Assembly: GCF_000378985.1 (NCBI RefSeq)
Contig: NZ_KB905370.1
Coordinates: 3,741,342-3,805,341 of the forward strand
Origin: Ensifer sp. BR816
GTDB taxonomy: Bacteria; Pseudomonadota; Alphaproteobacteria; Rhizobiales; Rhizobiaceae
Length of the DNA stretch: 64,000 nucleotides
Direction: 5' to 3'
Positions 14,221-64,000 of the stretch are shown one piece after another. The first letter of the stretch is position 1; each line of letters begins with the position of its first letter. The notes below the pieces were generated by a model. The model ran no database searches. It was not told the DNA's origin and saw only the letters and a program-made list of their open reading frames with translations. The position numbers were made by a program, and so were the translations under genes.

Positions 14221-14234
14221 GAAAGGAACAGACA

Positions 14235-32366: not shown

Positions 32367-32520
32367 GGGACCCTCCTGTCCATCAGATTGAGAAGCCTCA
32401 ATCGTCAGGCCAGGAACCCGAGACACAAAGAACCGCCGTCGATCAGGAAACCCACCGCCTGCCACAAGCGCCCTTGCCGCGCGAGCGGCTTAGTCCATCC
32501 ACCCGACGCCGACGAATCGA

Positions 32521-35687: not shown

Positions 35688-35801
35688 GTTTCTTCCTTCG
35701 TCGTATCGAGAATGCGGCGAAAGCCCCCCGCTTAAGACACGGAGACCCTCCACTACTGTCCCGACCGAACAGCTCTGGCCTTCAGAATGCGACGCAATGG
35801 C

Positions 35802-36767: not shown

Positions 36768-36815
36768 TGCGAACTTCCGATTCCTGCGACGTGGGGGCAA
36801 TGCCCTCTTTGGCGA

Positions 36816-37979: not shown

Positions 37980-37994
37980 CTCTCTTTCTCTCCC

Positions 37995-38948: not shown

Positions 38949-38954
38949 GGCCTC

Positions 38955-40145: not shown

Positions 40146-40342
40146 GGGGGGCGTCCTCCTCAAGCTGGAAATATTGATAACACGCCGTTCCGACGCGGTA
40201 AATTTTTTTGAAAGTATTTTTCAAAACGCCATACATTCAATCTTTATCGGTTGAAATCAGCATGTTATAATTTTTCATTATGCGGATTGATTTTTCATAT
40301 CTGGCATTCAAATATTGGATCACTTGGCGGAGGTGAAAAGCA
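40146..40342. promoter_or_regulatory. Divergent bhcA-bhcR control region with an IclR-type palindrome
   Basis: The region is AT-rich compared with its surroundings. At 40206-40226 there is a perfect inverted repeat, TTTTGAAA, 5 bp, TTTCAAAA. Two direct TTTTTCAT repeats lie at 40271-40278 and 40291-40298, exactly 20 bp apart and thus on one DNA face. These are good candidate sites for the IclR-family regulator BhcR, which responds to glyoxylate in Paracoccus. A GGAGG ribosome site precedes bhcR. Confidence 0.6.
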
Positions 40343-41152: not shown

Positions 41153-41161
41153 CCGGAAACC

Positions 41162-42493: not shown

Positions 42494-42494
42494 C

Positions 42495-45100: not shown

Positions 45101-45266
45101 GAGAGATACTCTTCGTGATCGAAACGGTAAGCGAGGAGGTCGACGACCCTCGCCTGCTCGCCTGAACGCGCCATCGCAGTGATGCGAGCACCACCAAGCT
45201 GGCACCTCTGGACGGGCGATCGGGTCATCGGAGCTCGGGGTTTGCCATGTGACGAAACCGTGTGGC

Positions 45267-48568: not shown

Positions 48569-49346
48569 TAGCCAAATCCCGGATCGAGCCAGCAAAGGGC
48601 TTCAGCTCGACGCCGCTTGCGATGAGTCTGTCGCGCACCGCCCGGGCGAGTGCAACGGCGGAGGGCGTGTCACCGTGGATGCAAATGGATTGCGCTTCGA
48701 GGACCATGTCGGTGCCGTCGATCGCGGTGATCCGATGCTCGCTGACCATGCGGAGCATCCGCGTCGCGACGACCTCAGCGTCGTGGATGACCGCGCCCGG
48801 CAGCCGGCGACTGACAAGGCTGCCGTCGCCGTTGTAGGCGCGATCGGCGAAGGCCTCGCACACGACCGTCAACCCAGCCGCGCGGGCTTGCTCGACAATC
48901 GGGGCACCCGCGAGCGCCATGAGTATCAGCGAGGGATCGACCGCCTTGATCCCGGCAATCACGTCGTCCGCTTGGCGCATATCGTTGGCGATAGTATTAT
49001 AAAGCGCTCCGTGCGGCTTGACGTAGCGAACTTCGGTGCCGGCGGCCTTCGCGAGGCCCTGCAGCGCGCCGATTTGGTAGATCGTATCGCCTACGAGCTC
49101 GGCGCTCGAGGGGTCCATGTTGCGCCGGCCGAAGCCGACCAGGTCTCGATAGCCGATATGGGCGCCAACCGAGACGCCGCGTCGCGCGGCCTCACGTAAA
49201 ACCGTAAGGATGCCCGCCGGATCGCCTGCATGAAAGCCGCAGGCAATGTTGGCGCTGGTGACAATGCCGAGCATCGAGGCATCGTCACCCATCGGCCAGG
49301 GGCCGAAACTTTCGCCGAGATCGCTATTGAGATCGATGCTTGCCAT
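48561..49346 (-). CDS. pxpA: 5-oxoprolinase subunit A (LamB/YcsF family)
   Basis: This is a 261-residue cytosolic protein with the family opening [52 protein letters not shown] and [12 protein letters not shown]. These match the metal-binding and ATP-linked fold of PxpA. It is the first gene of the pxpA / pxpBC / biotin carboxylase operon. The unit would use 5-oxoproline or a related lactam, including spontaneous pyroglutamate from glutamine or glutamate. Upstream lie 179 bp to the sugar ABC ATPase; promoter not assigned. Confidence 0.93.
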
Positions 49347-49525: not shown

Positions 49526-51064
49526 TCATTGTGCTGCAAGCTCCATGATCTTTACCTGATCGGCTTCCGCGCGATCCAAAATGCCGGACAAACGCCCCTG
49601 ACGTATAGTCATGACACGGTCGCTCATCCCGAGGATCTCGGGCATCTCCGAGGAGATCATGATCACCGCCAGGCCTTCGCCGGCAAGATTAGAGATCATG
49701 CGGTGGATTTCCGCCTTAGCGCCGACGTCGATACCCCGGGTAGGCTCGTCAAGTATGAGGATGCGCGGCTTCGTCAACAGCCAGCGGGCGATGAGTACCT
49801 TCTGCTGATTGCCTCCGGAGAGATTCAGGATCAACTCCTCCATGTTTGGGGTTTTGACCCTCAGCGCGCTTGTCATAGCATCACAGTCGCGGGACAGCCG
49901 TGTTTGATCGACGAAGCCGCGCCGGACATAGCCGCTGCGCAGCGCCGCCATCTGCATGTTTTCCTGGATGTTGAGAAGCAGAAAACAGCCGGACTCCTTG
50001 CGTTCTTCGGTGAGGAAGGCCATGCCATGTTCCATGGCGACAGCAGGCGAATCCACAACCACCTTCTTGCCACCAATCTCGATAGTACCCGAGGTCGCCG
50101 GGGTGACGCCAAAGATCGTCTCGGCTATATTGGAACGCCCCGCACCAACCAGGCCCGCGATGCCGAGGATCTCGCCGGCTCGTAAGTCGAAGGAAATGCC
50201 CTCGAAGAGGCCGGCCAGTCCGAGATTGCTCACTCTCAGGACGACGTCGCCAATCGGGGCGGGTGTCTTCGGAAACATCTGCGAGAGCTCGCGACCAACC
50301 ATCATTCGAATAACGTCGTCGCGGGTGACCTCGTTGGCGGCTCTGGTCGCGATGTGCTTGCCGTCACGAAAGACCGAGACCTCATCGGCAATTTCGAAAA
50401 GCTCGTTCATCTTATGCGTTATGTAGATGATCCCCTTTCCGGCTTCCCTGAGTGTTCGGATGATCCGGAAAAGGTGCTCCACCTCACGCTCGGTCAGAGT
50501 CGAGGTAGGCTCGTCCATGATCAGGACGTCTGATTCATAGGAAACCGCTTTCGCGATCTCGACCATTTGTCGGCTGGCGACGGAGAGCTTACCGACTTGT
50601 TCGTCCGGGTCTATATCGATCCCGAGGCGGTCGAAGAGTTCCAGCGTGCGGCGGCGCAACTCGTCGTGGTCGATAAAGCCAAATCGGTTCTTCGGCTCGC
50701 GGCGAATCCATACGTTTTCCGAGACCGTCATCGGCGCCATGAGGTTGAGCTCTTGGTGGATCATGGCGATTCCGTTGTCGAGCGCGTCGAGCGGGCTGTT
50801 CAGCCGGATCGATTGGCCGCGCCACTTAAATTCCCCGGCATCCGGCGTGTAGATCCCGGCAATGATCTTCATCAATGTCGACTTGCCGGCACCGTTCTCG
50901 CCCATGAGCGCATGCACGCTGCCGCGGCGAACCCGGAATGAGACATTGTCGAGCGCAACGACCCCCGCAAATTCCTTGCGGACGTTTTCGACCTCCAAGA
51001 GATACTCGGAGTTAGGCAGCGCACCCGTTTCGCGAACGACCTTGATTGTAGATGGTGACAGCAT
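49526..51064 (-). CDS. Ribose/sugar-type ABC importer ATPase with two ABC domains (orphan)
   Basis: The 512-residue RbsA/XylG/MglA-like protein has Walker [10 protein letters not shown] and a degenerate signature region near SVASRQMVE in the first ABC domain, with Walker [12 protein letters not shown]. The second ABC domain has the usual altered Walker A (GLVGAGRSN), the signature NLSGGNQQK and Walker [12 protein letters not shown]. It would power uptake of a pentose, hexose or polyol. No permease or binding-protein gene is next to it, only two LacI regulators upstream, so the importer is incomplete here. Confidence 0.92.
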
Positions 51065-51235: not shown

Positions 51236-52222
51236 CTAAGCAGACTGCCGGATCGTCAGTGAAAACGGCAGGATGACGGTTCGGTTGTGATCGTTCGTGG
51301 CGGGCGTTTCGTTGATCAGCTCCGCAATCGCAGGGCCGAAATCGAACGCCGGAACCTTGACGGTCGTGAGCCAAGGAGCAAGCCACCCGTTCACGCGATT
51401 GTCGTCGAACCCGAAGATGATCAGCTCTTCGGGAATCCGCATGTTCCTCTCCATGGCGGCCCGATAAACACCGTAGGCGATCATGTCGTTGGCGCAGAAG
51501 ACTGTGTATCGACGGCTGCGGTCAGCCAGAAGAAGCGAACCTTGCTGGTAGCCGGCCTCCATCGTGAAAGCGCACTCGAACCGGAGGACTTGGCGCATCT
51601 CGCCGACACCGGCGAGAAAGCCTTCAAGGCGCCGACTGCTTCCCGGATAATGTCGTGGCCCGTGGATTGCCACGCAGTTCTCGTAGCCATGCTCGATGAA
51701 ATAGCGTCCGACCGCGAAGCCGGCAGCGAAGTTATCAATCCCGACATAGGGAGCGACAATGCCGGGCGCGGGCCGGCGATTCACGAATATGAGGTTGTTT
51801 TGCCGCTCGGCCATCTCGCGCAATCGCGGTGTATCCATTGCGCCCTGTAGAACGATCGCTCGCGCACGCAGGCCCTGCGCATCTGCGAGCAGGCCGTCCT
51901 GCTTCTCAGCGTTTTCAGCCGTGTTTGCGAGCACCAATGAAAGTCCAATGCCTTTGAGCGCATTCTCAACCGACGCTGCGACATCGGCGGTAAAGAGGTT
52001 GGTGGCATCGGGCACCAGCATCATCACGACCCGGCTGCTCGCCAGTCGGAGCGAGCGACCGATCTCCGAGGGCGTGTAACCGAGCTCCTCTGCGGCACTG
52101 CGTACACTCTCAATTGTCTCGGGAGCAATCGCGCTCGTCTTGCCTGTGAAGAACCGCGAAACCGTGGCGGTGGAAACCCCGGAAAGGCGTGCTACATCGC
52201 GGATGGTCGGCGGCTTGGCCAT
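51236..52222 (-). CDS. LacI-family regulator, copy 1
   Basis: The 328-residue protein starts at MAKPPTIRDVARLSGVSTAT. The helix-turn-helix fills residues 5-25, the hinge is YTPSEIGRSLRLA, and a periplasmic-binding-protein-type sensor domain runs to the end. It is about 80 percent identical by eye to copy 2 (52512-53498), with equal length and no gaps noticed. It should repress nearby sugar genes until an inducer binds. Upstream at 52386-52431 lie two operator-like sites, so autoregulation is likely. Frames upstream of 52222 are not family-like. Confidence 0.92.
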   Translation of the reverse strand: MAKPPTIRDVARLSGVSTATVSRFFTGKTSAIAPETIESVRSAAEELGYTPSEIGRSLRLASSRVVMMLVPDATNLFTADVAASVENALKGIGLSLVLANTAENAEKQDGLLADAQGLRARAIVLQGAMDTPRLREMAERQNNLIFVNRRPAPGIVAPYVGIDNFAAGFAVGRYFIEHGYENCVAIHGPRHYPGSSRRLEGFLAGVGEMRQVLRFECAFTMEAGYQQGSLLLADRSRRYTVFCANDMIAYGVYRAAMERNMRIPEELIIFGFDDNRVNGWLAPWLTTVKVPAFDFGPAIAELINETPATNDHNRTVILPFSLTIRQSA

Positions 52223-52385
52223 TTCATTTTGTCCAGATGTTTCGAGGAGGTCCGCGTTCGCCCCACTTGGATTGCAAGTGCTCTTGGTTCCATGATTGAA
52301 GGGGCCCTGCCACTCGGCGAAAGCCCACCTTTCAAGCGCTCTGCCACTCGCGTCCAAACGTGCATGAATTTTTCAATTTCCGTAA

Positions 52386-52431
52386 TGTAAACGTGTACAC
52401 TATGCAAAATGCCGATGTCAACGATTACATG
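52386..52431. promoter_or_regulatory. LacI-type tandem operators ahead of copy 1
   Basis: TGTAAACGTGTACA (52386-52399) is a near-perfect palindrome around the CG centre typical of LacI-family sites. ATGTCAACGATTACATG (52415-52431) is the second box and occurs identically at 53601-53617. The two centres are about 30 bp apart, near three helical turns. Confidence 0.65.
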
Positions 52432-52511
52432 AGGGGATTTGTTTATCCCGGAAAGGAAGGCCCGGCTTTGGCAGCAAGTGCGCTCGCTCGTTTGCGAGTC
52501 CCTGCCCTTGT

Positions 52512-53498
52512 CTAAGCAGACTTTCTGATCGTCAGCGTAAACGGAAGAATAACGTTCCTATTGGGATCGTCGGAGGCGATCGGCTCATGAATGAGTTTGG
52601 CGATGGCAGGCCCGAAATCGAACGCCGGAACCTTCACGGTGGAGAGCCAAGGCGCCAGCCACTCGTTCAACCGATTGTCGTCGAAGCCGAAGATCACCAG
52701 ATCGTCGGGCACGCGCATGCTCTTCTCCATGGCGGCGCGATAAACCCCATAGGCAATCATGTCGTTGCCGCAAAATACCGCATATCTACGGGTGTGATCA
52801 GCCAGCAGCAACTGACCTTGGCGGTAACCCGCCTCCATGGTGTATGCGCTCTCAAACTGAAAAACAGGGCGCTCCTGCCCGAGACCGGCAAGGAAGCCAT
52901 CAAGCCGCTCAGTGCTGCCGGAGTAATGGCGCGGTCCGTGAATTGCAACGCAGTTCTCATACCCGCGCTCCACGAAATAGCGGCCGACCGCGCGACCCGC
53001 CGCGAAGTTGTCGATGCCCACGTAGGGAGCGATGATTCCCGGCGCCGGGCGACGATTGACAAAAATAAAGTTGTTCTGCCGCGAAGCCATGTCACGCAGG
53101 CGCGGCGTATCTATTGCACCTTGCAGCACAATCGCGCGCGCCCGCAGACCTTGTGCGTCGGAGAGTAGCCGGTCCTGCTGTTCCGCATTTTCGGAAGCGT
53201 TCGCCAGCACCATAGAGAGGCCGAAATCTTTCAGCGCCTGTTCGACTGACGCCGCAACATCCGCAGTAAAGGGATTCGTTGCATCGGGGACCAACATCAC
53301 GACCACACGGCTGCGAGCCAGGCGGAGCGAGCGCCCAATCTCTGATGGCGTATACCCAAGAGCCTCGGCGGCGTTACGCACACTCTCGATGGTTTCAGGT
53401 GAAATCGCATCAGTCTTCCCGGTAAAGTATCGAGACACTGTGGCGGTCGATACACCCGACAGGCGTGCCACGTCGTGGACAGTCGGCGGCTTGCTCAT
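52512..53498 (-). CDS. LacI-family regulator, copy 2
   Basis: The 328-residue protein starts at MSKPPTVHDVARLSGVSTAT with the same hinge (YTPSEIGRSLRLA) and a sensor domain containing PGIIAPYVGIDNFAAGRAVG. The DNA-recognition helix is nearly the same as in copy 1 (VSTATVSRYFTGK versus VSTATVSRFFTGK), so both probably bind the same operators. Differences concentrate in the sensor domain, which suggests a change in inducer or activity after duplication. An operator copy lies at 53601-53617, about 103 bp upstream. Confidence 0.92.
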   Translation of the reverse strand: MSKPPTVHDVARLSGVSTATVSRYFTGKTDAISPETIESVRNAAEALGYTPSEIGRSLRLARSRVVVMLVPDATNPFTADVAASVEQALKDFGLSMVLANASENAEQQDRLLSDAQGLRARAIVLQGAIDTPRLRDMASRQNNFIFVNRRPAPGIIAPYVGIDNFAAGRAVGRYFVERGYENCVAIHGPRHYSGSTERLDGFLAGLGQERPVFQFESAYTMEAGYRQGQLLLADHTRRYAVFCGNDMIAYGVYRAAMEKSMRVPDDLVIFGFDDNRLNEWLAPWLSTVKVPAFDFGPAIAKLIHEPIASDDPNRNVILPFTLTIRKSA

Positions 53499-53885: not shown

Positions 53886-54866
53886 TTACATTGCGTAGAA
53901 TGCGGGACGTGCTTCAATCGTTAGCTGTGCTGTGGCGTTCGCTCCGAGTGCCGCGACGATCTGTTCTGCCAGAGACCTGGTGACATATCCGTCCCACGCG
54001 CCAGCCCCGTGACTGGACTCACCCGTTCTTACAGATCTTACCCAAGCATTCATCTGGCTTGTGTAGGCATTTCGGAAGCGTGGCACCCAATTTTCTGGAT
54101 AAGTTGAGCCGTGATGACCAGCGACATTCCTGACAGTGGCGGTTGGGAGGGCGGTCTCGATAGTTCCATCACGGCCGACGAGCTGCGAATGCACATGATA
54201 ACCGTAGCCGCAGTTCATGAAGATCTCGGTTGAAACGATCTCGTTCTGGTCGGTCTGCATTGTGATCATCAGCGGGTCACCACCCGGCCCGGAATAAACC
54301 CGCGCCGACACCATCTCCGAGCCGAGCAGCCACCTACTCATGTCGATCTCGTGGACAAAGGCATTCGTCACCGACATCGGTCCGCTGAACCATGCAGGCA
54401 CGACGGGATTGCGATGGACGTTGTGCAGGATGACCGGCTTTCCAATTTCCCCTGCTTCACGCAGCCGTTTCATCTCTACATAGGGCGCATCGAAGCGCCG
54501 CATGTAGCCAACTTGAACCAGTCGCCGCCCTTTGGCGACCTCTGCCTCGACAACTTGAAGCGCCTCGGCCTCGGTGAGTGCAAGGGGCTTTTCGCACAGC
54601 ACTGGCTTACCCACTTCGATGCAAGCCAGCACGAGGCTGCCGTGCATCGCATCCGGCGCGGCGATCACAATCGCTTCGACGTGATCCGAGTTGATCAGCT
54701 CGAGCGGATCAGTGAACACCCTACGTCCTCCGGCTGCGGCACGGGCACGGTCTTCGTCAGCATCGCAAACGGCCGAAAGCTGCGCCCCGCTGGTCTCCTC
54801 GCGAAGAATGCGGGAATGTTCCGAGCCCATCACCCCGGTTCCAATTACACCTACCGCGACGCTCAT
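53886..54866 (-). CDS. Gfo/Idh/MocA-family dehydrogenase (inositol-dehydrogenase-like)
   Basis: The 326-residue NAD(P)-dependent oxidoreductase has a Rossmann opening (VGVIGTGVMGSEHSRIL), the conserved VLCEKPLALTEAEA (EKP at about 93-95), and the active-site segment NAFVHEIDMSRWLL with the catalytic His/Asp pair. It likely oxidises inositol, a sugar or a sugar derivative. The operator shared with the LacI genes (55060-55106) lies about 194 bp upstream, which ties it to the same regulon. It is transcribed away from the LysR gene. Confidence 0.9.
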   Translation of the reverse strand: MSVAVGVIGTGVMGSEHSRILREETSGAQLSAVCDADEDRARAAAGGRRVFTDPLELINSDHVEAIVIAAPDAMHGSLVLACIEVGKPVLCEKPLALTEAEALQVVEAEVAKGRRLVQVGYMRRFDAPYVEMKRLREAGEIGKPVILHNVHRNPVVPAWFSGPMSVTNAFVHEIDMSRWLLGSEMVSARVYSGPGGDPLMITMQTDQNEIVSTEIFMNCGYGYHVHSQLVGRDGTIETALPTATVRNVAGHHGSTYPENWVPRFRNAYTSQMNAWVRSVRTGESSHGAGAWDGYVTRSLAEQIVAALGANATAQLTIEARPAFYAM

Positions 54867-55214: not shown

Positions 55215-56108
55215 ATGTTCAGCCTAAGAAGCCTGGAAGTTTTTTATTGGGCAGGACGCCTGCGCAGCTTCTCCAAGGCAGCAGAGAAGCTCAACACCAC
55301 GCAGCCGACAATCTCACAGCGGATTGGGGCGATGGAGGAACTAGTCGGCGAACCTCTGTTCGATCGAATGGCGAAGCCCATAGCTCTGACAAGGGTTGGG
55401 CGAACCCTATTCGGCCATGCAGAATTGCTTCTGCGGCAGGTCGTTGCCATGGAGCGCGATCTTGAACTCAATAGGCACCTGCACTGCAGGATACGCCTTG
55501 GGGTCTCGGAAACTATTGTTCAAACGTGGCTTTCGCGATTTCTCGAACAGGCCTCGCGCCGCTTTCCAAACATAGACTTCGACATGACGGTGGACGTCAC
55601 CCCGTCAATGCTCGTTGCCCTGCAAAACGGCGAAATCGACATCGCACTGATGTTGGGACCCGCAGTCCTCGAAGGTTTCACCTGTGTAAAACTCAAGGAC
55701 TACCCTCTGCGGTTCTATGCGATCCCCGGGCTCGTCACGGGCGAACCGCTCACATATCAGAAAGCTCCGACCGTCCCCATTTTGACCTATCCTCGTAATA
55801 CCTACCCATTTGACTATCTCCGGGAGCTGATATTTGAAAAAAGCGGTCAACCCCCTCGAATCTTCGCAAACTCATCGATCTCGACAATCGAGAAACTGGC
55901 GCTCGACGGCATAGGCGTTGCACTTGTTGCAGAAGGCACTCTCGGTGCGGCAAAGGACGGCAACATTCTTCAGCCTGTCCCAAGCGAAATAGACCTCCCC
56001 CCCTTGAGGTTCTACGCGTTCTACCCGTTAGGCTTCGGCAGCGAAATGCTTGAGGAACTTGCGGCGATTGCGCAGCGCGTTGCCAGTGAGGACTCCCACG
56101 CGCAATGA
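55215..56108 (+). CDS. LysR-family regulator
   Basis: The 297-residue protein opens with a typical LysR winged helix (SLRSLEVFYWAGRLRSFSKA, then AEKLNTTQPTISQRIGAMEE). The substrate-binding domain follows (CRIRLGVSETIVQTWLSRFL). It lies 102 bp before the PLP dehydratase in the same direction and is the likely local activator of the dehydratase-DUF4392-RidA genes. The inducer is unknown; an amino acid such as a hydroxyaspartate or D-glutamate would fit the neighbours. Confidence 0.92.
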   Translation: MFSLRSLEVFYWAGRLRSFSKAAEKLNTTQPTISQRIGAMEELVGEPLFDRMAKPIALTRVGRTLFGHAELLLRQVVAMERDLELNRHLHCRIRLGVSETIVQTWLSRFLEQASRRFPNIDFDMTVDVTPSMLVALQNGEIDIALMLGPAVLEGFTCVKLKDYPLRFYAIPGLVTGEPLTYQKAPTVPILTYPRNTYPFDYLRELIFEKSGQPPRIFANSSISTIEKLALDGIGVALVAEGTLGAAKDGNILQPVPSEIDLPPLRFYAFYPLGFGSEMLEELAAIAQRVASEDSHAQ

Positions 56109-56210
56109 GGACGCATTACATCTCCTTATGCCGATCGATCAGGGATTATAATTTTACTTTAAGTCATCGCTGAGCTTGTCTTGGAGCATATACCGTCTTT
56201 GGAGCTCCAG

Positions 56211-57230
56211 GTGACAGTTCAACCTCCACTCGACCATTTCGAACCGACTGCAGATTCAATCCAAGCGGCGCGGGATCGTATTGGGAAATATGCGGTGCGT
56301 ACGCCGATCCTAGAGAGTCAGGAGCTGAACCGGCTGGTTGGAGGACGTGTGCTCATCAAGCCGGAGAACCTGCAACGTTCCGGCTCCTTCAAGCTTCGCG
56401 GCGCCCTGAACAGGGCCTTGCAGCTCAACGCGGCGCAGCGTGATTGCGGCATTGTGACGTGGTCGTCAGGCAATCACGGATTGGCAATCTCGTTTGTAGC
56501 CAGAGAACTTGGGATTCGAGCCACTGTTTTGATGCCTTACGACGCTCCCAAGACGAAGGTGGAGGGTGTGCGGCAAAACGGCGCGAGCGTCCGGCTCTAC
56601 GACAAAACCAAGGAAGATCGTGAAGAGATCGGCGCGCAAATCGCGGCTGAGAGCGGAGCTGTCATCGTGCCGCCCTATGACGATCCGTACGTCATTACCG
56701 GTCAGGCGACCCTCGGTGCGGAAATCGCCCACCAAGCTGCTGAAATAGGTGTCTCGCTTGATGTTGCGCTGTTTTCGTGTTCCGGCGGAGGGCTTGTTTC
56801 AGGCGCTGCTTGCGGAGTTCACACTCTCATGCCGCGGGCGGCAATCTATAGCGTTGAAGCCGCAGGTTTCGACGGGATGGCGCTTTCGCTTGCCGCCGGT
56901 GAGCCGCGAAAAGCGCCCGCGCTTGCCACATCGATCTGTGACGCTCTGCTGGTCCCTGCTCCGGGCAAATTGACGTTCCCGATATGTCGAAAGCATCTCG
57001 CCGGCGGGCTGTCTGTCGACGACGACGAGGTGAAGGAGGCTATCCGCTTCGCCTATCGTGACCTGAAACTCGTGGTCGAACCCGGCGGGGCGGTAGCATT
57101 GGCCGCGCTGTTGGCCGGCAAGTTGGAAATCACGGGAAAAATCGCCGCGATACTGGTCAGCGGCGGCAACGTCGATTCTGACAAGTTCGCCAACTACCTC
57201 ACCACCGTATCGGAACCTGAACATGCTTGA
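56211..57230 (+). CDS. PLP-dependent threonine/hydroxyaspartate-type dehydratase
   Basis: The protein has 339 residues from a GTG at 56211 (GGAG seven bases upstream); a TTG at 56181 is weaker. This fold-type II enzyme has the PLP lysine in RSGSFKLRGALNRA (about residue 61), the phosphate loop CSGGGLVSGAACG and SSGNHGLAISFVA. It belongs to the serine/threonine dehydratase - hydroxyaspartate ammonia-lyase - EutB group. It overlaps the DUF4392 gene by 8 bp. It probably deaminates or racemises a hydroxy amino acid. It is distinct from BhcB and not its duplicate. Confidence 0.88.
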   Translation: MTVQPPLDHFEPTADSIQAARDRIGKYAVRTPILESQELNRLVGGRVLIKPENLQRSGSFKLRGALNRALQLNAAQRDCGIVTWSSGNHGLAISFVARELGIRATVLMPYDAPKTKVEGVRQNGASVRLYDKTKEDREEIGAQIAAESGAVIVPPYDDPYVITGQATLGAEIAHQAAEIGVSLDVALFSCSGGGLVSGAACGVHTLMPRAAIYSVEAAGFDGMALSLAAGEPRKAPALATSICDALLVPAPGKLTFPICRKHLAGGLSVDDDEVKEAIRFAYRDLKLVVEPGGAVALAALLAGKLEITGKIAAILVSGGNVDSDKFANYLTTVSEPEHA

Positions 57231-58290
57231 TCTGCAAAGTGCAAAGGGCGAGAGAATCGCCCGGACTATCGAGAATTTTATGACGCTCGATCTCACAGGC
57301 CTCGGGCTGATCGGCAAGATTTATGAGGCGCTTCAAAGCCGCCAGCCCGGCCCGGCTTGCATGACGGCCGCCAAACTGATTTGCGACCGGGTGCGCGACC
57401 ATGGCGGTCCGATTGTCATTGCCACAGGCTTTCCCGAGGGGGCCGGCGTCCCTGAGACCGATGGCCCCGTGGGTGCAGCGCTCATGGCGCGTGCATTCTT
57501 CCTGGGGCTGGGTGTTGAAACGATCATCCTGACGGACAACGACTGGGTTGAAATGACGACCGGGACTTGCCGGGGAGCCGGCCTCTCTCCCCTTCCCTTC
57601 CCCGAATCTGGCGTAATCCAGTCGGTCGAGTTCATCCGACCGGTCTACATTCGCAGCGTGCCAAAGGACGATGCAGGCTGCCGGCAGATTACGGACTCTC
57701 TGCTCGATGTAACCAGACCGTCCCTGGTCATCTCGATTGAGCGCCCAGGAAGAAATGACCGTGGCGTCTATCATGGTCTCGGTGGACGGCCTCTCGACGG
57801 TCTTGTCGCCGATCTCGATCAATTTTTCCTTCGCGCGAAATCCAAAGGCGTTCCGTTCGTTGCTATCGGCGATGGAGGAAATGAGTTGGGGATGGGCGTG
57901 ATCGCAGAAGAACTCAAGGTCTTTTCACCGAAGGCCAAGGATAGTGGCCATCCGGGACGTGGAGGTGTGGCGGCGGCAACGGCAGCCGACCACCTGATCG
58001 TTTCGAACGTCTCCAACTGGGGTGCTACCGGGCTTATCGCTGCCCTTTCGGCACTACTTGAGAAACCCTCGATCTTCCACGACGGCGAGTTGGAGCGCCG
58101 GTGCATAGAACAATGCGTTTCCTTCGGTGGTGTCGACGGCATGTTCATGGGGCCGGAACCGGCAGTGGATGGCATTTCCGCTACCGAGTGGGCAGGGCTT
58201 GTGACCACGTTGCGCAACACGCTTGAGCGCCTCGCCGGCAGGGTCGTTGGCTGGAAAGGCGATAGCGGCGATTGGCGCCAACTGAAGTGA
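57223..58290 (+). CDS. DUF4392 protein, D-glutamate cyclase C-terminal half
   Basis: The 355-residue cytosolic protein has conserved blocks IVIATGFPEGAGVPETDGP, SIERPGRNDRGVYHGLGG, FVAIGDGGNELGMGV and VSNWGATGLIAALS. This is the DUF4392 domain that forms the C-terminal half of the eukaryotic D-glutamate cyclase DGLUCY, which turns D-glutamate into 5-oxo-D-proline. The other half (DUF1445) is encoded at 59880-60704 on the opposite strand. It is coupled to the PLP dehydratase (8-bp overlap). Whether the bacterial protein alone is catalytic is unknown. Confidence 0.88.
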   Translation: MLDLQSAKGERIARTIENFMTLDLTGLGLIGKIYEALQSRQPGPACMTAAKLICDRVRDHGGPIVIATGFPEGAGVPETDGPVGAALMARAFFLGLGVETIILTDNDWVEMTTGTCRGAGLSPLPFPESGVIQSVEFIRPVYIRSVPKDDAGCRQITDSLLDVTRPSLVISIERPGRNDRGVYHGLGGRPLDGLVADLDQFFLRAKSKGVPFVAIGDGGNELGMGVIAEELKVFSPKAKDSGHPGRGGVAAATAADHLIVSNVSNWGATGLIAALSALLEKPSIFHDGELERRCIEQCVSFGGVDGMFMGPEPAVDGISATEWAGLVTTLRNTLERLAGRVVGWKGDSGDWRQLK

Positions 58291-58298
58291 GAACAGGG

Positions 58299-58688
58299 AT
58301 GGGGATGGGGATCGTTGATGCGCGCTTGACCAGCCTCGGTCTGGAGCTTCCCGAAGAAAATCCTCCTCAAGGGAACTATGTTCCCTTTGTCCAATCGGGT
58401 GCTCTGGTCCTCGTCGCCGGCCAGGGCCCTCGCAAGGGTGGTCAGCTGATCTACAAGGGCGTTATTGGCGATAATTTGACCCTCGCGGATGGCCAGGCAG
58501 CCGCCCGCCTTTGCGCATTGAATATATTGGGACAGTTGCGCTCCGCCTGCAGCGGTGACCTTGATCGGGCCGTACGGCTCGTCCGGGTCGCGGGGCTTGT
58601 CCGTTGCACAAAGCTCTGCCCCGAGGCACGAATGGCGGCCGTGTCTATGCTGAAACAGCTAGGTCAGCGAATGCGTCACGGTGGCTAG
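58299..58688 (+). CDS. RidA-family protein with a replaced C-terminus
   Basis: The frame has about 129 residues (Met at 58299 or 58305). It matches the long RidA/YjgF subfamily up to residue 105 (NYVPFVQSGALVLVAGQGPR, then AAARLCALNILGQLRSACSG and VRLVRVAGLVRC). After that the usual tail with the active-site Arg/Glu region is absent and is replaced by KLCPEARMAAVSMLKQLGQR. A normal member has about 150 residues. RidA proteins hydrolyse reactive enamines/imines made by PLP dehydratases, so the placement after one is logical. This copy is probably damaged. Confidence 0.75.
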   Translation: MGMGIVDARLTSLGLELPEENPPQGNYVPFVQSGALVLVAGQGPRKGGQLIYKGVIGDNLTLADGQAAARLCALNILGQLRSACSGDLDRAVRLVRVAGLVRCTKLCPEARMAAVSMLKQLGQRMRHGG

Positions 58689-59017
58689 TTCTCTCCTTCG
58701 CATCGGAGGAGGTCAAGCCGGTTTAGTCTTCCTCATACCCATGGAAATCTGGATGGTGTTGGAACGCCCGTCGCAACGGCGTTGGTTCCGCGGAACCAAC
58801 GCTGCAAGCGGCAAGAACAGCCTTCAAGGCGATTGGGCGATAGTGCACCGAGAGATCGGGAGCTTTCTGATGGCCTTTATCCATGTTGGAAGTCATCCGA
58901 CAGTCCTTTAATCTGGCAATTCCGGTAAATGCTGCTCTCGCCCACCGATATCTTGGCCGTCCGGCCGGACGGGGCCGTATTCGCATTCGCGATCCAAGCC
59001 GATGAAGGTATCCAGGC
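58689..59017. other. Eroded region with a 24-bp perfect palindrome
   Basis: No intact gene is seen. The first codons on the plus strand (SSLLRIGGGQAGL) look like the FAD-binding start of a reductase that then breaks off. A perfect 24-bp palindrome occupies 58779-58802 (central GGTTCCGCGGAACC). The stretch separates two convergent operons. Confidence 0.55.
58779..58802. repeat. Perfect 24-bp palindrome
   Basis: Both arms match without a loop around TTCCGCGGAA. It is located between convergent operons, so it might be a bidirectional terminator stem, a protein-binding site or a recombination scar. No T-run flanks it. Confidence 0.7.
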
Positions 59018-59311
59018 TTAAGAGATGTGCCTGTACTTATTGAGCGTGACCGACTGGATCCACTGGCCGGCTTTTGCGCCGAATGCCTTCATTGATTCCG
59101 TATTGTTGTGCAGGTCGAGCGACTGCTCATCGTCCCAGATCTCATAAAAGAGGAATTCTCCGGGGCGATCGAGCGAAACGTGCAGATCGTATTGGACGAA
59201 GCCTGGCTCCGTGCGTGCGATGGAAACCAGTTCCATCAACCCGTCTCTAAGGAGGTCCTCTTTTCCTTGATGCGCGATGACCACTGCGACAACTACAAGC
59301 TTTTCCTTCAT
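59018..59311 (-). CDS. YgiN/ABM-type putative quinol monooxygenase
   Basis: The 97-residue dimeric alpha-beta barrel protein starts at MKEKLVVVAVVIAH. The family pattern is TEPGFVQYDLHVSLDRPGEF, then FYEIWDDEQSLDLHNNT. These small enzymes oxidise quinols or act as antibiotic-biosynthesis monooxygenases; many only bind small aromatic compounds. It is the last gene of the leftward seven-gene group, 42 bp after OsmC. A Met six codons further upstream is an alternative start. Confidence 0.88.
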   Translation of the reverse strand: MKEKLVVVAVVIAHQGKEDLLRDGLMELVSIARTEPGFVQYDLHVSLDRPGEFLFYEIWDDEQSLDLHNNTESMKAFGAKAGQWIQSVTLNKYRHIS

Positions 59312-59353
59312 GTATCGCCTCTCCTTCACAGATTTTCGTTGGTTGATCGCATG

Positions 59354-59821
59354 TCAAGCATCAGCTAGCTGTGGTTCCAACTCGATGGATACTTTCGACC
59401 TAATTGAATTTGCAATGAAGCAGCCTTTGTGCGCGCGGTGATGCAACCGAGCCAGAGCGTCGCGATCGGGTTGCTTTTCAGAACTGAAGGAGACTCTGGG
59501 CCGAAGCGTGATCGACGATACCCAGTGGAAACCCACAGGGCTTTTGGCGACCGTGCCGACGGCTTCGTCGACATAAGTGCTGACCGTATACCCGCTTCCT
59601 TCGCAAATCGCCAGGAAGTACAGCATGTGGCAACTTGCGAGCGCAGAAACGAGCAACTGTTCTGGATCGGCCATTTCGCTGTTGCCTAAGTAATCCGGGG
59701 CTGCCGAGACAGGGATAGTTACCTGAGGGCTGATGATTGACTTATGGTCGCGGCTGTATGTACCGGGTTGTTTGGTATGCTCAGTCGCGCTCCATTCAAC
59801 GCGCACGATGTGTTCAGACAT
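59354..59821 (-). CDS. OsmC/Ohr-family peroxide reductase
   Basis: The 155-residue protein starts at MSEHIVRVEWSATEH. It has the first redox Cys in VSALASCHMLYFLAI and the second in HHRAHKGCFIANSI. The OsmC fold is apparent, with the GYTVSTYVDEAVGT strand region between. It reduces organic hydroperoxides with lipoylated or thiol donors. That is of interest because an AcoC-type lipoyl E2 is encoded upstream in the same direction, and Ohr/OsmC enzymes in other bacteria are recycled by lipoylated proteins. Start chosen by family length. Confidence 0.9.
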   Translation of the reverse strand: MSEHIVRVEWSATEHTKQPGTYSRDHKSIISPQVTIPVSAAPDYLGNSEMADPEQLLVSALASCHMLYFLAICEGSGYTVSTYVDEAVGTVAKSPVGFHWVSSITLRPRVSFSSEKQPDRDALARLHHRAHKGCFIANSIRSKVSIELEPQLADA

Positions 59822-59879
59822 TGGTAGCTCTCCAGTTGATGCCGTGAACGGCGGGCACGTCTCGGCGCCCAACTTCGGT

Positions 59880-60704
59880 TCAGTTTCTCCGGGTCTCTTT
59901 GCCGGGCGTAACCGCAAGATCCGCTGGCAAATCGGTAACGAGCATAAATCCCGGCTCATGTGTGATCGCGAGGTCCAGTTTCGCCTCCTGAAGTGCGAGC
60001 TGCGGCGTTACCCCACAAGCCCAGAAGCCGAGTATGTCACCCGGTTCGATAACCGGCGGATCGCCGTAATCTGGCCTGATGATGTCTTTGATGCCAATGT
60101 CGGCGGGATCGCCTATGTGAACTGGGGCGCCATGGGCAAGCGGATAGCGGTCCGACAAGATGATGGCCTGGATGGCATCGGCCGGCCGAAATGCCCGCAT
60201 CGACACCACCATCGATCCGGCAAAGGGCCCCGCAGGGTTGGTAGGGAGATTCGTCGCGTACATCGCAACGTTGCGATTGGCACTGATGTGACGGATATCG
60301 ATCCCAGCGCGAAGGATCGCGCTCTCAAACGAGAATGAGCAACCAAGCGCGAACGTGACGAGATCGTCACGCCAGATGTCCGAAAGGTTGGCTATTGTCT
60401 CCGTATGCTCGCCCGACCGATAGACTCGATATCGAGCCACGTCTGTGCGAATGTCAATCGAGCCTAATTCAGGCAAGCCCGGATCGCCCGGCTTGCCAAT
60501 GCCGAGGAGCGGGCAACTTTTGGCATTGCGCTCGCAAAATAGGCGGAAGTCGGATGCATGCCGCTCAGGCAAAATCACCAGATTGGCTTGCATGAACCCT
60601 TCGGCAAACCCGGTGGTTGGGACGCGAAGGCTCCCTTCGCGGATCATCTGTCGAACTTCAGAAGCCGACATGGATGCCTTTGCTGCAACTGATTCCGTTG
60701 ACAT
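59880..60704 (-). CDS. DUF1445 protein, D-glutamate cyclase N-terminal half / putative hydro-lyase
   Basis: The 274-residue protein starts at MSTESVAAKASMSASEVR. Conserved DUF1445 blocks are present: GFAEGFMQANLVILPERHAS, LVTFALGCSFSFESAIL, GSMVVSMRAFRPADAIQAI, HGAPVHIGDPADIGI, and WACGVTPQLALQEAK with ITHEPGFMLVTDL. In animals this domain is fused to DUF4392 in the D-glutamate cyclase DGLUCY. Here the halves are separate genes in convergent operons, 1.6 kb apart. In bacteria it is often labelled a hydro-lyase. Cyclisation of D-glutamate to 5-oxo-D-proline is the best-supported activity of the family. Confidence 0.9.
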   Translation of the reverse strand: MSTESVAAKASMSASEVRQMIREGSLRVPTTGFAEGFMQANLVILPERHASDFRLFCERNAKSCPLLGIGKPGDPGLPELGSIDIRTDVARYRVYRSGEHTETIANLSDIWRDDLVTFALGCSFSFESAILRAGIDIRHISANRNVAMYATNLPTNPAGPFAGSMVVSMRAFRPADAIQAIILSDRYPLAHGAPVHIGDPADIGIKDIIRPDYGDPPVIEPGDILGFWACGVTPQLALQEAKLDLAITHEPGFMLVTDLPADLAVTPGKETRRN

Positions 60705-60737: not shown

Positions 60738-61160
60738 CTAGTGCTGCTGCAGCGCTGACACCATCACCTCTGCAATCGCTACGTCGGCATCCACCGGTCC
60801 CCCCGACGCGCCAACCCCCCCGATGACGGTCTTGCCGTCGTGGACCGGCAATCCGCCGCCGAAGACGACAAAGGGCCTGCGCCCGCCGAGCGCATCAAGC
60901 CCATAGAGCGCTGCGCCCGGCTGCACGATTTCGAGCCAGCTCCCGGAAGGCGAGCGCAGGGCCAGAGCGGTATATGCCTTGCCTTGAGCGATCTCGACTG
61001 TGGAAAGCGCGGCGTCGTCGACGCGCAAGAACGCCATCAGGTTGCCGCCGGCATCCACGATTGCGAGAGAAGAAGGCTCACCAAGCTGCCGTGCTTTCGC
61101 CGCGCCGACCTCAATGGCTTTGAGCGCCGATTCATGCGTAATCATCTTCGCCATTTTCAT
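60738..61160 (-). CDS. GlcG/HbpS-family haem-binding-like protein
   Basis: The 140-residue protein has the DUF336 pattern: ITHESALKAIEVGAAKARQ, SSLAIVDAGGNLMAFLRVDD, AQGKAYTALALRSPSG and IGGVGASGGPVDADVAIAE. Members include GlcG of glycolate loci and the haem-binding HbpS; some act as small cofactor-binding or redox proteins. It lies between DUF1445 and an SDR in the same transcription unit. The exact role is unknown. The presence of a separate glcDEF operon in this window makes a glycolate link possible, but the two are 15 kb apart. Confidence 0.88.
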   Translation of the reverse strand: MKMAKMITHESALKAIEVGAAKARQLGEPSSLAIVDAGGNLMAFLRVDDAALSTVEIAQGKAYTALALRSPSGSWLEIVQPGAALYGLDALGGRRPFVVFGGGLPVHDGKTVIGGVGASGGPVDADVAIAEVMVSALQQH

Positions 61161-61175: not shown

Positions 61176-61931
61176 TTAGTTGTAGATTCCGCCGTCGACA
61201 TTGATCGACTGAGCTGTGACGTACGAAGCCTCATCCGAGGCGAGATAGACGAACAACGGCGCGACCTCTTGCGGTGTGGCCTGTCGTCCAAGCGGGATGA
61301 CCGTCGGAACCAGGGCTTCCTGCTTGTCTCTGCCACCGATGTAGTCGATGGCCGGCTGGTTGAACGGGGTATCAATCCAACCCGGGCAGACAGCGTTTAC
61401 ACGGATTCCGTCGCGAGCCAGTTCGAGGGCGAGCGTTGTCGTCAACCCAATGACTGCGGCTTTCGATGCCGAATAGGCTAGCAACCCCGGCGCGCCACGC
61501 TTGCCGGCAAGCGACGACATCATCACGATCGAAGACTTGGCAGCAGCACGGAGGTGTTTGACGGACTCGCGCGCAAAAATGAAATTGGCCCGGACGTTGA
61601 TCGTGAAAACCTTGTCCCAGTTGCTGGTACTAAAATCTTCCACTTTGCCCGAGAGTTGGACGCCTGCATTCAGGCACAGCGTGTCCAACCCTTTCATCCA
61701 GGCGACCGATTGAGCGATCGCGTCCTTGATTTCGTCTTCCTGCGAGATATCCGCTTTGAAAAAGCGGACTCGCTCGCCAAAACGCTTCTCGACTTCGGCA
61801 CCCTTGGCTGCATCGATGTCGACCACAGAAACTGTTGCACCTTCGGCCACGAATGCCTCAAGTATGGCAAGACCGATATTCGCCACGCCTCCGGTCAAGA
61901 GAACGCGCTTGCCTGACAATCGTCCGGACAT
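61176..61931 (-). CDS. Short-chain dehydrogenase/reductase
   Basis: The 251-residue classical SDR has the cofactor loop LLTGGVANIGLAILEA, an acidic Asp after the second strand (VVDIDAAKG) that favours NAD(H), LNAGVQ, and the catalytic Ser-Tyr-Lys set with IVMMSSLAGKRG and LAYSASKAAVIGL. It ends in SINVDGGIYN. The substrate is likely a hydroxy acid or alcohol. It sits 60 bp after the AcoC-type gene and 15 bp before the GlcG-like gene, so it should be co-transcribed. Confidence 0.9.
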   Translation of the reverse strand: MSGRLSGKRVLLTGGVANIGLAILEAFVAEGATVSVVDIDAAKGAEVEKRFGERVRFFKADISQEDEIKDAIAQSVAWMKGLDTLCLNAGVQLSGKVEDFSTSNWDKVFTINVRANFIFARESVKHLRAAAKSSIVMMSSLAGKRGAPGLLAYSASKAAVIGLTTTLALELARDGIRVNAVCPGWIDTPFNQPAIDYIGGRDKQEALVPTVIPLGRQATPQEVAPLFVYLASDEASYVTAQSINVDGGIYN

Positions 61932-61991: not shown

Positions 61992-63110
61992 TCATCCGCG
62001 CTGGATGTTTTCGAGGATGGCTTCGTTGGCGGCGGACGATGCCTCCATCTGCGGCATGTGGCCGACCGCCGGGATGACGCGCAGCCGAACATTTTCGGGC
62101 AGGTCGGCCGCCTGCGGGAGCGGGACGATCTCGTCCCGTTCGCCCCACAGGAGCGTCACCGGGCAGGTCAGTTCCCGAAGCTGGCCGGCGATCGACTGCA
62201 ACTGGCCATTGTCGTCGGCGATCGTGTCGGCGATCGCCGACAGCGCCTCCGGCACGCCCTCGAGCCGCTTGAAGCGAAGCGTTCCCTCGACCATGTCGCT
62301 GGTGATCTTCGACGGATCGGCAAACAGCCGCTCCAATACGCCGAGCAGCGGCCGGCGGCGTTCCACCGCAACGAAGTCGACGAGGAAATCCCGGCTCATC
62401 TGCTTGCTCAGCCCGATCGGGGCGATCAGCGTCAGCGAACCGACGCGCGAGGACCGCTTGGCGGCGATCGCCGCAGCGACAGCGCCGCCAAACGAGTGCG
62501 CCACCAGATGGATCCTGCCGGGCGCAACGGCTTCGACCGCCGCGTCGACGGCAGCGACGATCTTCGGGAAGACATCCTCGCCCGCGATCGGCGACGAGGC
62601 GCCGTGTCCGGGCAGATCGACCGCAACCACCCGCATGTTTTCGGCGAGCGCCGACTGGTTGAACAGCCAGGTCGAGAGATCGCCGCCAAAGCCGTGCAGC
62701 AGCACGGCGGTCTCGTCACTCTCCGGTCCCGCTTCGAGGACGTTGATCACACCACCATCCACAGCGATCGTCCGTGGCGCCGACGCGCCGCCTTCGCCTT
62801 CCTCACCCGCACCAAGCCGGTCCGCATAGCTTGCGATGAAGGCGTCGATCTCTTCCGACGTCGCCGCCGCGTCGGCGATCACGCCGGCGAGCGCACCGAC
62901 CGGCGCCGTCGTTCCCTCGCCAAGGACGATGCGCCTCAGCGTTCCGGTCGCGGCGGCTTCCACGACATTGGTGACCTTGGTGGTTTCGATCTCGAGGATT
63001 TCCTGACCGCGAGTGACATGTCCGCCCTCGCCGACCATCCACTGGGTGATCTTGCCCTCGGTCATCGTCATTCCCCATTTGGGAACGGTGACTGCCTCGA
63101 TTGACGACAT
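61992..63110 (-). CDS. acoC: Acetoin-dehydrogenase-type E2 (lipoyl domain plus alpha/beta hydrolase)
   Basis: The 372-residue protein has an N-terminal lipoyl domain with the lipoyl Lys45 in EIETTKVTNVVEAA. This is followed by an alpha/beta-hydrolase domain with the nucleophile Ser in LVAHSFGGAVAAAIA and the His in AVGHMPQM. This architecture is characteristic of AcoC, whose hydrolase-fold domain replaces the usual catalytic E2 core. The start MSSIEAVTVPKWGMTM at 63110 fits the family. It lies 5 bp after acoB. Acetoin cleavage to acetaldehyde and acetyl-CoA is the expected reaction, but a related 2-oxo substrate is possible. Confidence 0.93.
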   Translation of the reverse strand: MSSIEAVTVPKWGMTMTEGKITQWMVGEGGHVTRGQEILEIETTKVTNVVEAAATGTLRRIVLGEGTTAPVGALAGVIADAAATSEEIDAFIASYADRLGAGEEGEGGASAPRTIAVDGGVINVLEAGPESDETAVLLHGFGGDLSTWLFNQSALAENMRVVAVDLPGHGASSPIAGEDVFPKIVAAVDAAVEAVAPGRIHLVAHSFGGAVAAAIAAKRSSRVGSLTLIAPIGLSKQMSRDFLVDFVAVERRRPLLGVLERLFADPSKITSDMVEGTLRFKRLEGVPEALSAIADTIADDNGQLQSIAGQLRELTCPVTLLWGERDEIVPLPQAADLPENVRLRVIPAVGHMPQMEASSAANEAILENIQRG

Positions 63111-63115
63111 CGTGT

Positions 63116-64000
63116 CTACCTCTTGATGATGGAGGTCGCTGCCTTCACCACGGCATCGGCCGAGGGAATATAGGCGTCCTCGAGATTGGGGGCGTAGGGA
63201 ACCGGGGAATGCGGCGCCGTCACCAGCTTGATCGGCGCCTTCAGCGCATCGAAGCACTTGTCGGCCAAGAGTGCCGAGATATCGGCAGCCACGCCGCAGC
63301 GCGGATTGGCTTCGTCGACGATGACGACACGGCCGATCGTCTCGGTGAACTCGAGCAGCGTGTCCTCGTCGAGCGGCGAGGTGGTACGCGGGTCGATGAT
63401 ACAGGCGGAGATGCCCTCGGCCGCCAGCTTGCGGGCGGCCTCTTCGGCGACCTGGACCATGCGGCCGATAGCGACGATCAGCACGTCCTTGCCGTCGCGC
63501 GCCACCCGCGCCTCACCGAAGGGGATCGTGTAGGCGCCGTCCGGCACCTCTCCCACCGTGTCGTAGAGCATCTTGTGCTCGAGGAAGATCACCGGATCGT
63601 CGTCGCGGATCGCCTGCAGCAGCAGCCCCTTGGCGTCATAGGGGGTCGACGGGATGACCACCTTGAGGCCGGGAATGTGGGTGAAGATCGGATAGAGCGC
63701 CTGGGTGTGCTGCGACCCGGAGCGGCTGCCGGCGCCATAGGTGGCGCGAACGACGAGCGGGGTCTTGGCGCGGCCGCCGAACATGTAGCGGAACTTCGCC
63801 GCCTGGTTCATGATCTGGTCGAGGCAGACGCCGGCGAAGTCAACGAACATGATTTCCGCGATCGGCCGCAGGCCGGTGAGCGCCGCCCCCGCCGCTGCGC
63901 CGATAAAGGCCGCCTCGCTGATCGGCGTGTCGCGAATGCGCTCCGGCCCGAAGGCGTCCAGCAGCCCGCGGGTGACGCCGAACGGACCACCCCAGGCATC
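63116..64000 (-). CDS. acoB: Acetoin-dehydrogenase-type E1 beta subunit, 5' end outside the window
   Basis: The gene is cut by the window end; at least 294 residues are present. Transketolase-like pyrimidine and C-terminal domains are seen: DTPISEAAFIGAAAGAALTG, then PLVVRATYGAGSRSGSQHTQ, RMVQVAEEAARKLAAEG and PRTTSPLDEDTLLEF. This is the E1 beta signature of AcoB and the closely related PDH/BCDH beta subunits. The gap to the acoC start is only 5 bp. The acoA gene is expected just beyond the window. The name depends on the AcoC-type partner. Confidence 0.92.
   Translation of the reverse strand, partial: DAWGGPFGVTRGLLDAFGPERIRDTPISEAAFIGAAAGAALTGLRPIAEIMFVDFAGVCLDQIMNQAAKFRYMFGGRAKTPLVVRATYGAGSRSGSQHTQALYPIFTHIPGLKVVIPSTPYDAKGLLLQAIRDDDPVIFLEHKMLYDTVGEVPDGAYTIPFGEARVARDGKDVLIVAIGRMVQVAEEAARKLAAEGISACIIDPRTTSPLDEDTLLEFTETIGRVVIVDEANPRCGVAADISALLADKCFDALKAPIKLVTAPHSPVPYAPNLEDAYIPSADAVVKAATSIIKR

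Follow-up and report, generated by a model that had tools for sequence, protein, structure and literature searches.

Gene content of the locus

The DNA analysed here is a 64-kb stretch of Ensifer sp. BR816 (contig NZ_KB905370.1, positions 3,741,342 to 3,805,341; hereafter the window). It carries genes for the two protein families of D-glutamate-cyclase type, DUF4392 and DUF1445, as separate genes in convergent units on opposite strands, with their ends 1.59 kb apart (Table 1). Each is the only match to its family found by a search of the host genome. A preliminary description of this DNA had placed the two genes 1.6 kb apart, DUF4392 with a pyridoxal phosphate (PLP)-dependent enzyme (PALP), a Rid protein and a LysR regulator, and DUF1445 in a unit linked to acoB and acoC; all of the named genes are present, and both families are matched over their cut-offs. 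The DUF4392 protein has all six of the acids that serve as metal ligands (E78, D80, E173, D217, E221 and D316, as read from the printed alignment of TON_0340, a DUF4392 protein of solved structure), and these six are invariant among 23 sequences.

The ends of the open reading frames (ORFs) for PALP, DUF4392 and Rid overlap one another, and position 56211, the start previously assigned to PALP, is an in-frame GTG inside the PALP ORF. PALP contains the SSGNH motif and is 37% identical to BhcB. Its best NCBIfam model is threo-3-hydroxyaspartate ammonia-lyase, at 292.9 bits and so below the cut-off of 452, and its closest match in the PDB is 1v71, an S. pombe protein, with serine racemases next. 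PALP may be either a dehydratase or a racemase. Compared with Rid of S. americanum CCGM7 (154 residues), the Rid frame agrees over residues 1–102 and then diverges, whilst in S. americanum CFNEI 73 and CFNEI 156 the Rid match is split over two frames. Rid may therefore be truncated here, and may be dispensable in the cluster of the window. On the minus strand, DUF1445 passes the NCBIfam cut-off for PRK05463 (374 against 324 bits) and has PDB matches in 3db9 and 2pif; the true start of the adjoining OsmC gene probably lies nearer the middle of its ORF.

A complete set of pxpA and pxpBC genes had been placed 8–11 kb away. The set is there (45267–49346, about 8–12 kb from DUF4392), but PxpB and PxpC are fused and divergent. 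The PxpA protein passes the subfamily model NF003814 and scores below the cut-offs of the PxpA equivalog models. The PxpB domain fails TIGR00370 (122.5 against 145.55 bits), which is passed by the PxpB proteins of a second set in this genome and of Komagataeibacter (181.4 and 157.4 bits, respectively). For PxpC, the score against NF045499 is 181.8 bits, versus 288.3 and 295.3 bits in the other two sets, and none attains the cut-off of 500. The second set lies elsewhere in the genome, which holds two pxpA genes; it encodes PxpB, PxpC, PxpA and biotin carboxylase as separate genes and is 34–47% identical to the set in the window. The set in the window is a divergent paralog in which PxpB and PxpC form one protein and to which a separate biotin carboxylase belongs, and a substituted pyrrolidinone would be as plausible a substrate for it as 5-oxoproline. 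A related PxpA-PxpBC-biotin carboxylase set on a plasmid of S. meliloti AK83 (L070:9980–17671) adjoins DUF1989 and an aspartoacylase-family gene, a neighbourhood that appears to point to another lactam or amide substrate.

Directly past the Pxp set, over 35802–45352, lie glcDEF and bhcRABCD, the latter a complete β-hydroxyaspartate cycle: BhcA, BhcB, BhcC, BhcD and BhcR score 755.5, 602.7, 763.3, 588 and 411.1 bits against cut-offs of 650, 550, 690, 500 and 350. These genes belong to the same cluster, though the preliminary description, whose named genes are otherwise all present, did not mention them. At the other side, beyond the right edge of the window (adjoining stretch L019), the next genes of the minus-strand unit encode AcoA, the permease RbsC, the binding protein RbsB, a sugar-isomerase-family protein and Gfo2, and further rightwards come two more Gfo/Idh genes and a second AcoABC set. 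We take the DUF pair and the Pxp, glc, bhc, Aco, Rbs and Gfo2 genes as one functional cluster.

The two copies of AcoABC (L019:334–3518 and L019:10667–13791) lie about 7 kb apart and are 98–100% identical in protein sequence, and for that reason we set aside the idea that they serve two different cleavages. To the left of the bhc genes, 31563–32465 encodes a phage-type integrase and 34722–35753 a radical-SAM protein of lipoyl-synthase type. No tRNA is found in the window, so that an attachment site for an island cannot be placed.

Table 1. Genes of the cluster within the window, in order of position
Feature	Position	Strand	Basis or remark
BhcD, BhcC, BhcB, BhcA and BhcR, β-hydroxyaspartate cycle	35802–41152	− (BhcR, +)	All five over NCBIfam cut-offs
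GlcD, GlcE, GlcF, glycolate oxidase subunits	41162–45352	−	GlcF over NCBIfam cut-off; GlcE and GlcD below
Biotin carboxylase with biotinyl domain	45267–46973	−	Profile match; listed ORF opens at 47270
Fused PxpB-PxpC-like protein, divergent	46970–48595	−	PF02682 and PF02626
PxpA-like protein	48561–49346	−	PF03746; NF003814, 374.6 against 226 bits
RbsA, ribose-type ABC transporter ATPase	49526–51064	−	Two ABC_tran stretches
Two LacI-family regulators	51236–53498	−	Profile match
Gfo1, Gfo/Idh/MocA oxidoreductase	53886–54866	−	Profile match
LysR regulator of the DUF4392 unit	55215–56108	+	Pfam HTH_1, LysR_substrate
PALP, PLP fold-type II enzyme, dehydratase or racemase family	56181–57230	+	Pfam PALP
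DUF4392 protein, D-glutamate-cyclase C-terminal type	57223–58290	+	PF14336, E 1e-71
Rid-family (YjgF/Rid) protein, possibly C-terminally truncated	58272–58688	+	PF14588
OsmC-family protein	59354–59959	−	PF02566 at residues 95–195; ORF overlaps DUF1445
DUF1445 protein, putative hydro-lyase, D-glutamate-cyclase N-terminal type	59880–60704	−	PF07286, E 7e-58
HbpS-like protein	60738–61160	−	PF03928
SDR oxidoreductase	61176–61931	−	PF13561
AcoC-type E2, lipoyl and alpha/beta-hydrolase domains	61992–63257	−	PRK14875, 432 against 307 bits
AcoB, E1 beta	63116–63850	−	Profile match; listed ORF cut by start choice, gene runs on into L019

Conservation of the gene neighbourhood

Orthologs of DUF4392 that are more than 80% identical to the window protein occur in 15 PLSDB records, many of them closely related and so not independent. 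A relative of pxpA (70.6–98.1% identical) lies 8–34 kb from DUF4392 in all 15, and DUF1445 is within 34 kb in at least 11. A scan of one genome per species yielded 24 related loci, most of them cut by contig ends, with neighbours counted at an identity of at least 30%. Rid was found at 17, PALP at 16, LysR at 14, DUF1445 at 9, PxpA at 6, AcoB at 4 and BhcC at 3. Where both 10-kb flanks are complete (nine loci, three of them in Gluconobacter), PALP is present at eight, DUF1445 at six and PxpA at three. Close DUF4392 proteins (E 1e-60 or better) are rare: two genomes out of 398 in the phylum encode one, and three out of 397 in the order, the Ensifer genome being counted in both.

The arrangement varies between lineages. 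In G1187, a member of the same order and another family, LysR, PALP, DUF4392, DUF1445, a branched-chain-type ABC transporter, PxpB and PxpC follow in one direction, and that block with about 17 kb beyond it gives no match to Rid, PxpA or biotin carboxylase. Gemmobacter has PxpA-DUF1445-PxpBC-biotin carboxylase downstream of DUF4392, and Komagataeibacter has PALP-DUF4392-Rid-PxpB-PxpC-PxpA-biotin carboxylase. Thus the linkage put forward in the preliminary description is kept in distant relatives (G1187, Gemmobacter, Aureimonas, Komagataeibacter and Gluconobacter), as it is for pxpA in the plasmid orthologs, and the lack of conservation that was to have refuted the proposal is not what this clade shows. 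Several copies of DUF4392 have no PALP or Rid match beside them. Two Rhodobacteraceae loci (L028:1461–8272 and L030:7947–14663) carry LysR-PALP-DUF4392-Rid followed by TRAP DctP and DctM genes.

The wider cluster is also retained. Gfo2, the isomerase, RbsABC, AcoABC and bhc/glc genes accompany DUF4392, DUF1445 and Pxp in shuffled orders in Rhizobium, Agrobacterium, Gemmobacter and Aureimonas. On a Rhizobium sophoriradicis plasmid, about 47 kb hold LacI, DUF4392, Gfo2, isomerase, binding protein, permease, AcoABC, SDR, HbpS, OsmC and DUF1445, and then a second AcoABC, a second Gfo2-isomerase-RbsBAC, PxpA, PxpBC, biotin carboxylase, lipA, GlcDEF and BhcRABCD. Most parts of the cluster are also present in Agrobacterium CFBP7129, though arranged differently; an alpha-hydroxyacid oxidase gene lies near bhc there, and GlcDEF was not found in the stretches examined. 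Bhc genes adjoin the DUF4392 module in Agrobacterium, DUF4392 is placed between BhcC and BhcA in Mesorhizobium Root102, and in Pseudomonas mosselii (L041:12607–21067) the DUF4392 unit is flanked by aco-DUF1445 genes and by gcl-hyi-glxR-glcDEF.

As a control, 16 loci were taken around any DUF4392 gene; one (L065) falls in the close clade, and the other 15, of 7 to 20 kb each, represent other subfamilies. At E 1e-12 and 45% coverage, a setting at which weak homologs are missed, these 15 show no PxpA, PxpBC, DUF1445, PALP or Rid. Thirteen of them matched the DUF4392 query at 25–36% identity, L054 and L057 were not matched by that query at all, and L060 appears, by its length, to be the same record as L017. 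Co-occurrence of DUF4392, DUF1445 and Pxp genes, which had been proposed for a search across genomes, is therefore kept in one DUF4392 clade, and we reject a linkage general to the family (0 of 15). Across the 16 genomes with any DUF4392, DUF1445 occurs somewhere in 10 and pxpA somewhere in 8; in G070, from another subfamily, one contig carries DUF4392 and, 25 kb away and so outside the sampled stretch, pxpA. DUF1445 sits about 0.4 kb from pxpA in two of the ten genomes that hold it (G138 and G029). The B. subtilis genome holds one DUF1445 match, which we take to be ycsI. Record L017 itself, a Sinorhizobium sojae plasmid, has a tandem pair of other DUF4392 genes (11935–15373) by an amino acid ABC transporter and an aldehyde dehydrogenase, and similar two-gene arrangements are seen in other genomes too.

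A possible route for calystegine breakdown

We tentatively favour the reading that these genes make up a single catabolic island of plasmid type, whose substrate would be a nitrogen bicycle resembling a sugar, with calystegines as the likeliest candidates. Calystegines are polyhydroxylated nortropanes (calystegine B2 is 8-azabicyclo[3.2.1]octane-1,2,3,4-tetrol), and levoglucosan, 6,8-dioxabicyclo[3.2.1]octane-2,3,4-triol, shares the [3.2.1] bicyclic triol of calystegine B. The nearest family of Gfo2 is levoglucosan dehydrogenase: it scores 558.7 bits against NF052479 over its full length, below the cut-off of 650, and aligns with PDB 6a3f over residues 37–423 (470.6 bits). This likeness, together with the shared bicycle of the substrates, argues for calystegines. 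The levoglucosan pathway proceeds by oxidation at C3 and then ring opening by an isomerase-family enzyme (PMC7676230). The location of the cluster argues the same way. It lies on plasmid pRme41a of S. meliloti Rm41, at about 159–209 kb of NC_018682, and Rm41 catabolises calystegines, whilst Rm1021 differs, a trait attributed to pRme41a (PMC3556828). For strain 1021 the searches covered pSymA and pSymB, and neither is among the matches listed, which comprise 15 records with a close DUF4392 and 8 with most of the Pxp-transporter stretch; both lists leave out some weak matches. The calystegine reading is further favoured by the presence of DUF4392, DUF1445 and Pxp in a single block in G1187, along with the retention of the six metal ligands, and by the fact that two unrelated kinds of C2 gene accompany DUF4392, namely bhc with glcDEF or alpha-hydroxyacid oxidase in rhizobia and Agrobacterium, and gcl-hyi-glxR with glcDEF in P. 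mosselii.

Calystegine as the substrate, and every reaction of the following route, we infer from these observations. Uptake would occur via the ribose-type ABC transporter. Gfo2 would oxidise the ring triol and the sugar-isomerase-family protein would open the ring; opening of the C1 aminoketal of calystegine would leave an alpha-hydroxyketone, suited to cleavage of the AcoABC type. The AcoABC complex would then cleave the acyloin C–C bond, such that C1, C7, C6, C5 and C4 end up in a five-membered lactam with a substituent at the carboxyl level and C2–C3 is released as a two-carbon unit, glycolaldehyde or glycolate. Given the 5R configuration, the five-carbon lactam would become 5-oxo-D-proline. 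GlcDEF and the β-hydroxyaspartate cycle would convert the C2 unit to oxaloacetate, and on this proposal its release would be the reason for their presence; gcl-hyi-glxR-glcDEF in P. mosselii would deal with this product in another way. The lactam would be opened by the divergent, biotin-dependent Pxp set, DUF4392, as a metal enzyme of the D-glutamate-cyclase type, and DUF1445 would interconvert 5-oxo-D-proline and D-glutamate, and, at loci that have them, PALP (as racemase or dehydratase) and Rid would clear the D-amino or hydroxyamino acid. It is speculation that calystegines with a 6-hydroxyl would lead to 3-hydroxyglutamate, which would account for a dehydratase and Rid.

In the open-licence literature we found no paper naming calystegine catabolic genes. 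It is possible, if doubtful, that the cluster contains these so far unnamed genes, that the alkaloid is attacked like an anhydrosugar to give glycolate/glyoxylate and 5-oxo-D-proline, and that the bacterial DUF4392 and DUF1445 proteins are D-glutamate/5-oxo-D-proline enzymes of plant alkaloid breakdown. The preliminary description had proposed that the genes could jointly make and open 5-oxoproline from D-glutamate or related D-amino acids. The conserved linkage and the six metal ligands partly support this interpretation, but it is too narrow: the DUF pair makes up little of a more extensive catabolic cluster, and 5-oxoproline therefore more probably arises as an intermediate in the breakdown of a larger substrate than by synthesis from D-glutamate.

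Several points weigh against calystegines. On pRme41a this cluster is one catabolic locus among several (others include three sugar ABC loci, a HyuA/HyuB oxoprolinase locus, genes for D-amino acids and a route for protocatechuate), which means that attribution of the trait to the plasmid does not single out this cluster, and no gene-level evidence tying calystegine to the cluster was found. In Gluconobacter, Komagataeibacter and Rhodobacteraceae, PALP-DUF4392-Rid is accompanied by MFS or TRAP transporter genes, and the stretches examined lack the sugar genes, so the core has a use without a calystegine-like substrate. The gcl-glc neighbourhood in Pseudomonas comes from one genome, with no control for how often such genes adjoin, and the stereochemistry used in the route is assumed. 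Gfo2 scores under its family cut-off, and its substrate could be an anhydrosugar. Lastly, the core is accounted for almost as well by a simple D-glutamate/5-oxoproline module.

Alternative explanations

That last possibility, which we consider unlikely, takes LysR-PALP-DUF4392-Rid with DUF1445 and Pxp as a module for the use or salvage of exogenous D-glutamate or 5-oxo-D-proline. The DUF proteins would interconvert lactam and acid, PALP would racemise and Pxp would open the lactam, the sugar and C2 genes being separate pathways on the same accessory DNA. The G1187 block, with its amino-acid-type ABC transporter, PxpB and PxpC, fits such a module, as does the Komagataeibacter gene order. TRAP genes adjoin it in Cereibacter and another Rhodobacteraceae genome, and DctP-type proteins that bind pyroglutamate are known (PMC12344293). 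DUF1445 adjoins pxpA in G138 and G029, ycsI lies in the B. subtilis pxpABC operon (PMC10448178), and the mouse fusion protein converts D-glutamate to 5-oxo-D-proline (PMC5339696). However, the module leaves unexplained why Gfo2, the isomerase, RbsABC, AcoABC and bhc/glc are retained with it in rearranged orders across four genera, and the Pxp proteins of the window are a divergent paralog alongside a second genomic set. Moreover, making 5-oxoproline from D-glutamate only to open it again would spend ATP for little.

The matches of PALP raise another explanation, in which PALP dehydrates a beta-hydroxy amino acid (isomers of 3-hydroxyaspartate or 3-hydroxyglutamate), Rid hydrolyses the imine, DUF4392 prepares or repairs the substrate, and the tie to 5-oxoproline is secondary. 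Threo-3-hydroxyaspartate ammonia-lyase is the top model for PALP in all four lineages examined, albeit at 291–320 bits and so each time under the cut-off of 452; the identity to BhcB and the position of DUF4392 among or beside bhc genes in Mesorhizobium Root102 and Agrobacterium are in keeping with it. We nevertheless regard this as improbable, since DUF4392 stands without PALP and Rid at several loci, no bhc match is seen in the examined stretches of P. mosselii, G1187 and Komagataeibacter, and we know of no DUF4392 reaction on beta-hydroxy amino acids. It is very improbable, in our judgement, that the RbsABC-Gfo2-isomerase part uses levoglucosan or another anhydrosugar, with the nitrogen genes as unrelated neighbours. 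The full-length likeness of Gfo2 to levoglucosan dehydrogenase is what such a part would show, and known levoglucosan loci also include LacI, sugar ABC and isomerase-family genes (PMC7676230, PMC10066097). Against this, Gfo2 misses the family cut-off, and Pxp, DUF1445 and DUF4392, which are unneeded for a route from levoglucosan to glucose, remain together with both Gfo2 and the isomerase even in distantly related genera. Rhizopine and opines, brought to mind by the MocA-family and isomerase genes, were set aside as candidate substrates: with them, the glyoxylate genes and the likeness to levoglucosan dehydrogenase would both be left unexplained.

Comparison with known systems

Calystegines come from plants, and their use as nutrients by a root bacterium has been attributed in print to one plasmid. 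If our favoured calystegine reading is true, the cluster would provide a gene-level pathway that can be tested in Rm41, a natural role for two DUF families that are widespread and occur in animals too, and a tie between an exotic substrate and the β-hydroxyaspartate cycle. Should the substrate be wrong, the conserved linkage of DUF4392, DUF1445 and Pxp still renders the functions of both DUF proteins directly testable.

The preliminary description knew of no pathway combining these pieces. The combination is not entirely undescribed, however, as parts of it are already in print: the DUF1445-type gene, as we take it to be, in the B. subtilis pxpABC operon, the animal fusion of DUF1445 and DUF4392 domains, for which a sequential function has been proposed (PMC5132392), and a preprint table that, as read without its column heads, places the human protein with those whose microbial homologs are split (PMC11580864). 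Animal D-glutamate cyclase (9030617O03Rik/C14orf159; PMC5339696, PMC5132392) resembles the present system in its two domain families, and the six DUF4392 metal ligands are present here. There the two form one fused polypeptide, whereas here they are two genes in convergent units amid Pxp and catabolic genes, known from sequence alone. TON_0340 of Thermococcus has been described as a phosphatase with weak, Mn-dependent activity and no known role (PMC5132392), and no theme of phosphorylated substrates is seen in the neighbourhood here. PxpABC of B. subtilis (PMC10448178) has its counterparts in the PxpA, PxpB-like and PxpC-like domains of the window, with DUF1445 nearby as ycsI is there; the differences are that PxpB and PxpC are fused, that a biotin carboxylase with a biotinyl domain follows, and that the PxpB domain is under its family cut-off. 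The β-hydroxyaspartate cycle is matched in BhcA–D and BhcR, all over their cut-offs and accompanied by glcDEF, but here it is embedded in a more extensive cluster that also has genes for Pxp, the DUF proteins and sugar transport. The levoglucosan pathway (LgdA, LgdB; PMC7676230, PMC10066097) is paralleled by the LgdA-like Gfo2, the isomerase-family protein, LacI and a sugar ABC transporter, and differs in that Gfo2 is under the family cut-off and genes for lactam, D-glutamate-type and C2 metabolism stand alongside. Finally, the cluster shares with calystegine catabolism in Rm41 (PMC3556828) its location on the same plasmid, pRme41a.

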